A model generated the notes under the pieces. The model did not search any database, was not told where the DNA came from, and saw nothing but the letters and a program-made list of their open reading frames with translations. Below are positions 7,630 through 28,755 of a DNA stretch of 33,424 nucleotides, piece by piece. Numbering within the stretch: position 1 is the first letter of the stretch; each line of letters opens with the position of its first letter. The position numbers were made by a program, and so were the translations under genes. Source of the stretch: a bacterium (GTDB taxonomy: Bacteria > Patescibacteriota > Minisyncoccia > Phycocordibacterales > VMGT01); the NCBI GenBank assembly GCA_023264615.1, contig JAHFLU010000004.1, positions 1 to 33,424 of the forward strand, read 5' to 3'.

Positions 7630-7860
7630 TTACGTGGCTGCGCTTTTCCGCCGCTCTTTCATCTTCTTTTCTTTCTTTGCAATCGATACAGAAACATTCT
7701 CTACCACCTTACCCCGATATTTTCCGCAAGTACCGCATGCACGGTGGCGCAAATGCGACGCATTGCAATCGGCACACCTCGAGAGACGGGGCTCAACAAG
7801 GGCATGGTGGCTTCTTCGGTTACCCGTATGTGAACGGGTGTGTCTCATTCGGTTTACCAT
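7630..7860 (-). CDS. rpmF: 50S ribosomal protein L32
   Basis: VNRMRHTRSHTGNRRSHHAL plus zinc motif CADC...CGTC. Confidence 0.88.
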   Translation of the reverse strand: MVNRMRHTRSHTGNRRSHHALVEPRLSRCADCNASHLRHRACGTCGKYRGKVVENVSVSIAKKEKKMKERRKSAAT

Positions 7861-17377: not shown

Positions 17378-17406
17378 ACTATACTATGAAAGTAAAACTA
17401 TGTCAA
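17378..17406 (-). promoter_or_regulatory. Strong sigma70-type promoter
   Basis: Minus strand TTGACA-N17-TATAGT. Confidence 0.75.
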
Positions 17407-22158: not shown

Positions 22159-22896
22159 TTAGAATTGAATCGGCAAGCGAGCATCTCCGTTATAAAATAA
22201 ACGAATATCATCGATTTGATATTTGAGTATTGTAAGACGGTCGATGCCCGCGCCAAACGCAAAGCCGCTCCACTCGTTTGAATTAATTCCCACACTATCA
22301 AGTATTTTTGGATGCACCATACCAGCACCCATAATCTCAATCCATCCCGTACCTTTGCAGATAGAACAGCCTTTTTCCCCGCCACAGCGAAAACAAGAAA
22401 TATCAATTTCTACACTCGGTTCCGTAAACGGAAAGTAGCTCGGGCGAAAACGAACTTTCACGCCTTTTCCAAAAAAAAATATAAAAAAGTCTTCGAGTGT
22501 TCCTTTAAGGTGTGCAAGAGAAATGCCTTTCTCTACCACAAGTCCTTCTACTTGGTAAAACTGTGTTTCGTGTGTCGCGTCCGTCGCTTCATAGCGATAT
22601 GTCTTTCCCGGCACAATAATACGTAGTGGCGGTTTGTGCTTTTCCATATAGCGCACCTGTACGGGCGAGGTGTGCGTACGCAAAAGCATGCCGTCCTTTT
22701 TTGGCTTCACCCAAAACGTATCCCACATATCGCGCGCAGGATGGTCTTTCGGAATGTTAAGTGCATCAAAATTATAATGTTCCGTTTCTATTTCCGGACC
22801 ATCAACCGTATCAAAACCACGTTCCGTAAAGTACGCATTGATCTCGTTTATCGTATGTGTGATGGGATGCAAATGGCCTTTCTGTTCCGTTTCCAT
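22159..22896 (-). CDS. pheS: Phenylalanyl-tRNA synthetase alpha subunit, short form (~245 aa)
   Basis: [70 protein letters not shown]. Track start 23004 replaced by [11 protein letters not shown]. Confidence 0.94.
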
Positions 22897-22906
22897 GTGT
22901 ATAGTG

Positions 22907-22936
22907 ATAGTAATACAAAAAGCGCACCCTTGCCAA
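22907..22936 (-). promoter_or_regulatory. pheST promoter
   Basis: Minus strand TTGGCA-N18-TACTAT, ATG 10 nt after the -10. Confidence 0.55.
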
Positions 22937-22969
22937 ATCATGAAAAAGCAAGGATACCACAGTGGCACA

Positions 22970-22998
22970 TTGACATGTATACTCACCTGTGTTAAAAT
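22970..22998 (+). promoter_or_regulatory. Strong sigma70-type promoter, divergent from pheS
   Basis: TTGACA-N17-TAAAAT. Confidence 0.82.
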
Positions 22999-23050
22999 GC
23001 GCACAAATCAACGTTCCCCCTTAAGAAGCCATCTGCCTTGGAGGCAAATC

Positions 23051-23182
23051 ATGTGGTCGCATGTCCGTAACATCCTCTGTCTGGTTCTCGTAATGGTAGC
23101 CGTTAATGGCTACATGTACTTGTCTTTCGGCCAACTTGGCAACCCCGTGAGCACACGTCCGCTCACCTACCAGACTCCCTGA
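23051..23182 (+). CDS. 43-aa predicted membrane microprotein
   Basis: MWSHVRNILCLVLVMVAVNGYMYLSFGQLGNPVSTRPLTYQTP; SD GGAGG 6 nt before ATG, promoter upstream, terminator downstream. Confidence 0.65.
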   Translation: MWSHVRNILCLVLVMVAVNGYMYLSFGQLGNPVSTRPLTYQTP

Positions 23183-23192
23183 CCCACAGGAG

Positions 23193-23233
23193 GGCCGGCT
23201 ATCAATCATTGATAGCCGGCCTTGACTCTTTTT
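23193..23233 (+). terminator. Strong intrinsic terminator
   Basis: GGCCGGCTATCAAT-C-ATTGATAGCCGGCC followed by TTGACTCTTTTT. Confidence 0.9.
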
Positions 23234-23283
23234 GACAATTCCAAATCCAATATCAACTGATTACCGAGCGGGGCAAAACGTGA

Positions 23284-23355
23284 GCCGACGGAGGGACTCG
23301 AACCCACGACCCGCACTTTACAAAAGTGCCGCTCTACCAACTGAGCTACGTCGGC
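23284..23355 (-). tRNA. tRNA-Thr (anticodon UGU)
   Basis: GCCGACG...GCTCAGTTGGTAGAGC...GCACT-TTTGTAA-AGTGC...TTCGAGT...CGTCGGC; acceptor stem perfect; CCA not encoded. Confidence 0.95.
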
Positions 23356-28708: not shown

Positions 28709-28755
28709 GAGACAGCAAAATAGAGACCCTAAGAGACTCTCTATTTTGCTGTCTC
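28709..28755 (-). terminator. 17-bp perfect inverted repeat overlapping the rplY stop codon
   Basis: GAGACAGCAAAATAGAG-N13-CTCTATTTTGCTGTCTC. Confidence 0.6.

Follow-up and report, generated by a model that had tools for sequence, protein, structure and literature searches.

PheM of Escherichia coli is a leader peptide and attenuator of pheS. Small single-pass membrane proteins have fewer than 60 residues, one hydrophobic helix and their own ribosome-binding site (PMC10903887). Membrane-type type I toxins are likewise small and hydrophobic, with a narrow distribution and a partly paired Shine-Dalgarno (SD) sequence (PMC8309996). Until the cyanobacterial case that it describes, according to PMC12390103, type I toxins were known from Proteobacteria, Firmicutes and Tenericutes alone. 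In E. coli O157:H7 Sakai, 210 intergenic open reading frames (ORFs) have no homologue. Many of these have ribosome footprints yet are classified as non-coding, and only a third have an SD (PMC5597208). For Patescibacteria, we found no relevant work on small proteins or small RNAs (sRNAs) in the open-access literature searched.

Here we describe a compact unit in a metagenome assembly from the Patescibacteria (Paceibacterota-type, 1.03 Mb in 83 contigs). The DNA analysed, which we call the window, is a stretch of 33,424 nucleotides (contig C71 of this genome, G000). The unit has the anatomy of a small membrane protein gene: a promoter, an SD, and an ORF of fewer than 60 codons with one transmembrane segment. 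Like the described small single-pass membrane proteins (PMC10903887), its peptide has one hydrophobic helix and its own ribosome-binding site; unlike them, it has no sequence family in common with them and no known partner. With the Sakai orphan ORFs (PMC5597208) it shares shortness, an intergenic position, its own promoter, the lack of homologues and a composition that is not recognised as coding. Those ORFs have RIBO-seq support, whereas ours is known from its sequence, though it does have an SD. A short ORF and a terminator close to pheS also recall the PheM attenuator. However, the unit lies on the strand opposite to pheS and contains a single Phe codon, and we rejected the pheS leader peptide on these grounds. 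An attenuator of a downstream plus-strand gene was rejected as well, since there is none nearby; the next clear one lies at about 31.8 kb. On balance, the unit is probably a young gene, restricted to this lineage, whose monocistronic mRNA encodes a single-pass membrane microprotein.

The unit begins with a sigma-70-type promoter, TTGACA-N17-TAAAAT with an extended -10 (TGTTAAAAT, positions 22970 to 22998, plus strand), which we examined by sequence inspection, a promoter scan and shuffles. TTGACA occupies 22970 to 22975 and TAAAAT 22993 to 22998, with a TG one base 5' of the -10. The site matches the consensus at 11 of 12 bases in addition to the TG. Transcription is predicted to start at about 23004 to 23006. 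When the whole window was shuffled 100 times with dinucleotides preserved, sites with at least 11 of 12 matches and an extended -10 occurred 0.02 times per shuffled window, compared to one observed. If the TG is not demanded, three are observed and 0.35 expected from the same shuffles. The first-pass annotation had called this the best consensus promoter in the window. It is unique once the extended -10 is counted, but by its hexamers alone it ties at 11 of 12 with a site at 17406 on the minus strand. Genome-wide, the pattern TTGACA-N16-18-TANNNT occurs at 80 sites, compared to 11 for the reversed control pattern. Hence this consensus is in real use here. The first twelve bases of the promoter, TTGACATGTATA, recur exactly at two other places in the genome, on contigs C2 and C26. 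At the C26 site (G000:C26:6277) the identical core, TTGACATGTATA...GTGTTA, precedes an ABC-transporter-like gene. The rarity of the promoter, the genome-wide enrichment and similar compact units elsewhere in the genome give good support to an independent transcription unit, as had been proposed.

Downstream of the promoter, the predicted untranslated leader extends from 23004 to 23050 and contains the SD, GGAGG, at 23040 to 23044, 6 nt 5' of the ATG at 23051. The ORF (MWSHVRNILCLVLVMVAVNGYMYLSFGQLGNPVSTRPLTYQTP, 23051 to 23182, plus strand) has 43 codons, ends in TGA and stops 10 nt 5' of a hairpin. It consists of a short basic N-terminus (MWSHVRN), one hydrophobic segment (ILCLVLVMVAVNGYMYLSF) and a polar tail of 17 residues, and its maximal mean Kyte-Doolittle hydrophobicity over 19 residues is 2.1. 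Promoter, SD, ORF, hairpin and T-run are thus all found in the positions and the order first reported. The length of the ORF is by itself unremarkable: an ATG frame of at least 43 codons arose in 408 of 3000 shuffles of the transcript (14%). Such a frame together with an SD arose in 14 of the 3000 (0.5%), and frame, SD and transmembrane segment together in one, figures that are only indicative because the criteria were chosen after the ORF had been seen. Across the window, this ORF is the only one of at least 20 codons that is opened by GGAGG-N4-9-ATG.

Behind the ORF, a perfect 14-bp inverted repeat (23193 to 23221, plus strand; arms 23193 to 23206 and 23208 to 23221) forms a terminator-like hairpin of about -23 kcal/mol. 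A T5 run follows at 23229 to 23233, 7 nt past the stem, with TTGACTC between. Because the U-run begins this far beyond the stem, the terminator is only borderline (d'Aubenton-Carafa score +0.3 for the hairpin and the offset T5). The description as a strong terminator therefore fits the hairpin but not the T-run. Other perfect hairpins lie between genes of the window, for example, at 1193 to 1225 and 28709 to 28755.

RNA folding bears on the rival reading that has survived best, although we consider it unlikely: a lineage-specific structured sRNA that acts by base-pairing or protein binding and contains the 43-codon frame by chance. With the hairpin, the transcript folds at z = -4.3. Without it (23005 to 23190) the fold is ordinary (z = -1.07), which speaks against the sRNA. 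Among control units from the same genome, again without terminators, two ORF-less ones fold at -4.22 (G000:C54:3098) and -3.23 (G000:C55:46913), and one with a 94-residue membrane ORF (G000:C2) at -0.29. The ordinary fold thus places our unit with the ORF-bearing control and apart from the ORF-less ones, so by this yardstick we lean towards an mRNA, on a comparison of four units in all. For the sRNA, the sub-region 23076 to 23178 forms a closed multi-branch fold with z = -3.9, within limits picked post hoc from the fold; 1.3% of all 103-nt windows reach this value or lower. The GC content of the transcript (0.52) is also above that of its flanks (0.41-0.44), the codon composition of the ORF looks non-coding (see below), and ORF-less orphan units that resemble sRNA genes do exist in this genome. 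However, an sRNA would leave the placement of SD and ORF to coincidence, at the 0.5% given above. Rfam covariance models run over 22880 to 23290 returned no match, even with the threshold relaxed to E≤10. A covariance model built from the single sequence of the unit gave no convincing match in 297 genomes either: the best, at E 0.03 per genome, is at the level of chance. The first-pass annotation had allowed for an mRNA, a structured sRNA or both. The SD and ORF just before the hairpin and the ordinary fold without it tilt this choice towards the mRNA, which supports the proposal in part.

Homologues were not found in any collection that we searched. The peptide has no homologue in 60 relatives and is present in a single copy in its own genome. 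In 397 genomes of the same order, its best match has E 0.006 per genome, which is chance level over 397 genomes. The frame extended to 61 residues had no match in GTDB contigs and viral contigs, the peptide showed no similarity to phages, and the DNA had no match in plasmids. Pfam, NCBIfam, PHROGs and PADLOC assigned the ORF to no family and to no known toxin family. The DNA of the unit, compared with 297 genomes, had only one other match, 22 nt within a coding region of G055. On inspection, the weak peptide matches in G004 and G024 proved to lie in unrelated coding or intergenic DNA. In the collections searched, we thus see no conservation of the reading frame, which is one half of what the first-pass annotation had said would refute its proposal (the other half being the absence of a transcript between 23000 and 23235). 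Orphan status does not separate a peptide from an RNA, since the two ORF-less units are equally orphan (in the sister species, G001, and the 60 relatives).

Codon usage first seemed decisive against a coding ORF. The codon composition of the ORF resembles non-coding frames and falls below 98.7% of gene chunks that contain a transmembrane segment. Its GC3 is 0.67, and its synonymous codon choice lies at the 23rd percentile of real genes, inside their range. We dropped this argument once a control had scored lower still. The control, rpmF (76 residues, 7630 to 7860, minus strand), whose product we recognised by eye as similar to ribosomal protein L32, also scores as non-coding, with a codon-composition score of -0.10 compared to -0.07 for the ORF. 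Because a genuine gene scores lower, codon composition has little power for short proteins here. The failure of rpmF calls for caution with codon tests of small genes in this genome.

A second rival, which we regard as improbable, is that the unit encodes a type I toxin. The mRNA of the small hydrophobic peptide would then hide its SD, and an antisense RNA made from the other strand would restrain it, for instance, one produced by read-through from the tRNA-Thr side. The peptide shares its size (below 60 residues), one transmembrane helix and orphan distribution with membrane type I toxins, and its SD is partly paired as theirs are (PMC8309996; PMC12390103). The pairing is in a hairpin (TGCC-TTGGA-GGCA) that is weak, however. 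In a fold model the last two G of GGAGG are unpaired 4-16% of the time and the first two 53-64%. Known membrane toxins further differ from our unit (PMC8309996) in that the minus strand over the unit has no antisense promoter-like site (the best reaches 8 of 12, though read-through from tRNA-Thr might still supply an antisense RNA), the unit has one copy only in the genome, and the peptide matches no toxin sequence or family (Pfam, NCBIfam, PHROGs, PADLOC). Both the structured sRNA and the type I toxin are thus less likely than a microprotein mRNA.

The unit stands between pheS and tRNA-Thr, and relatives differ in what lies between these genes. On one side, pheS (phenylalanyl-tRNA synthetase alpha chain, 22159 to 22896, minus strand) has its ATG at 22896, which confirms that the unit is divergent to it. 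On the other side, tRNA-Thr(TGT) (23282 to 23355, minus strand) has its 3' end toward the unit. The closest pheS sequence (86% identity) comes from 'Parcubacteria group bacterium Greene1014_15'. The gap between pheS and tRNA-Thr, which contains the unit, is about 385 bp here. In a sister species of the same genus (G001, locus L101) the gap is about 890 bp and contains repeat-like sequence together with an unrelated ORF (up to 165 codons); nothing in it can be aligned to the unit. In a relative whose pheS is 66% identical (L103) only about 90 bp separate the two genes. Since its size and content differ among relatives, the gap seems to be a place of turnover that is prone to insertion. Judging from this comparison, the unit presumably either arose or came in once the two species had diverged, or else the sister species has lost it. 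A decayed, non-functional insert in this variable gap (left over from a mobile element or a gene, with promoter-like and hairpin sequences kept by chance) fits the differing gaps but is just as improbable as the toxin, given that promoter, SD, ORF and hairpin are intact and ordered, that the flanks of the unit carry no direct repeats (for which reason we also rejected an IS or att origin), and that phages and plasmids hold nothing similar.

Two further observations concern pheS. In the sister species, an inverted repeat of the type CGTCATTGCGAGGACGAAG...CAATGACG and the 165-codon ORF lie about 680-780 bp upstream of pheS; neither is present here. A -10-like hexamer stands a few bases 5' of the pheS ATG in both species, TACTAT here (within 22896 to 22912) and TATAAT in the sister species. 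With such a hexamer so near the ATG, the pheS mRNA may be leaderless or nearly so.

For the microprotein mRNA, we propose the following course of events. The housekeeping-type sigma-70 promoter with its extended -10 would drive an mRNA of about 230 nt from about 23005. Ribosomes would load at GGAGG and make the 43-residue peptide, with MWSHVRN as the basic N-terminus, ILCLVLVMVAVNGYMYLSF as the one membrane-spanning helix and a polar tail. The peptide would then enter the cytoplasmic membrane with its N-terminus inside. By analogy with small membrane proteins, it could there bind or adjust another membrane protein; the partner and the effect are speculative, but we regard such modulation as the most probable role. 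The hairpin at 23193 to 23221 would keep transcription from proceeding antisense into tRNA-Thr. As the comparison with the Sakai ORFs (PMC5597208) shows, an orphan with an odd composition and clear signals is a known kind of gene; its sequence is new.

Similar compact units occur in the same genome, in an inventory drawn from the 80 genome-wide promoter sites only. The closest, on contig C2 (L067:1130-1529, minus strand; G000:C2:2408), has a 94-residue orphan membrane ORF. It shares with our unit the TTGACATGTATA promoter core, an SD, a hydrophobic ORF, a 14-bp terminator-like hairpin, a GC3 above 0.6 and the lack of a clear homologue. It differs in having no protein similarity to it and two or more hydrophobic segments. 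A weak match to its protein in G001 was set aside, because the region there has no matching unit. A site on contig C69 (L203, 964, minus strand) has a similar promoter and an SD-led ORF of 41 codons.

Two units are poor in ORFs. G000:C54:3098 (L190:899-1165, plus strand) has no ORF, a promoter matching at 12 of 12 bases plus the TG, an RNA of about 190 nt (z = -4.2) and a 15-bp terminator-like hairpin. None of the Rfam families exceeds its cut-off, and G001 and the 60 relatives hold no convincing DNA homologue; it is a candidate for a new sRNA. G000:C55:46913 (L192:690-1014, minus strand) has a promoter matching at 11 of 12 bases plus the TG, an RNA of about 260 nt with long closing stems (z = -3.2) and a 12-bp terminator-like hairpin. 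It is not a tRNA or tmRNA and matches no Rfam family, and again G001 and the 60 relatives yielded no convincing DNA homologue. Separately, a SAM riboswitch (RF00162, 55.8 bits) lies directly behind a TTGACA promoter on contig C65 (L197:968-1081, plus strand).

Our unit may belong to a set of homologue-poor compact units (at least those on C71, C2, C54 and C55, perhaps that on C69) that each have an almost perfect promoter, a terminator-like hairpin and either a structured RNA or a small ORF for a membrane protein. We offer this idea tentatively and think it rather doubtful.

The unit alone alters no general view. If it is translated, it would be a clean case of a membrane microprotein that is confined to one species and encoded in a streamlined genome of the Patescibacteria. 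Codon statistics cannot settle such genes, but where homology fails they are recognisable from their anatomy: promoter, SD and terminator. If the set of units is real, then such minimal genomes would maintain a stock of new small genes that turns over quickly, and some of these genes could be type I toxins.
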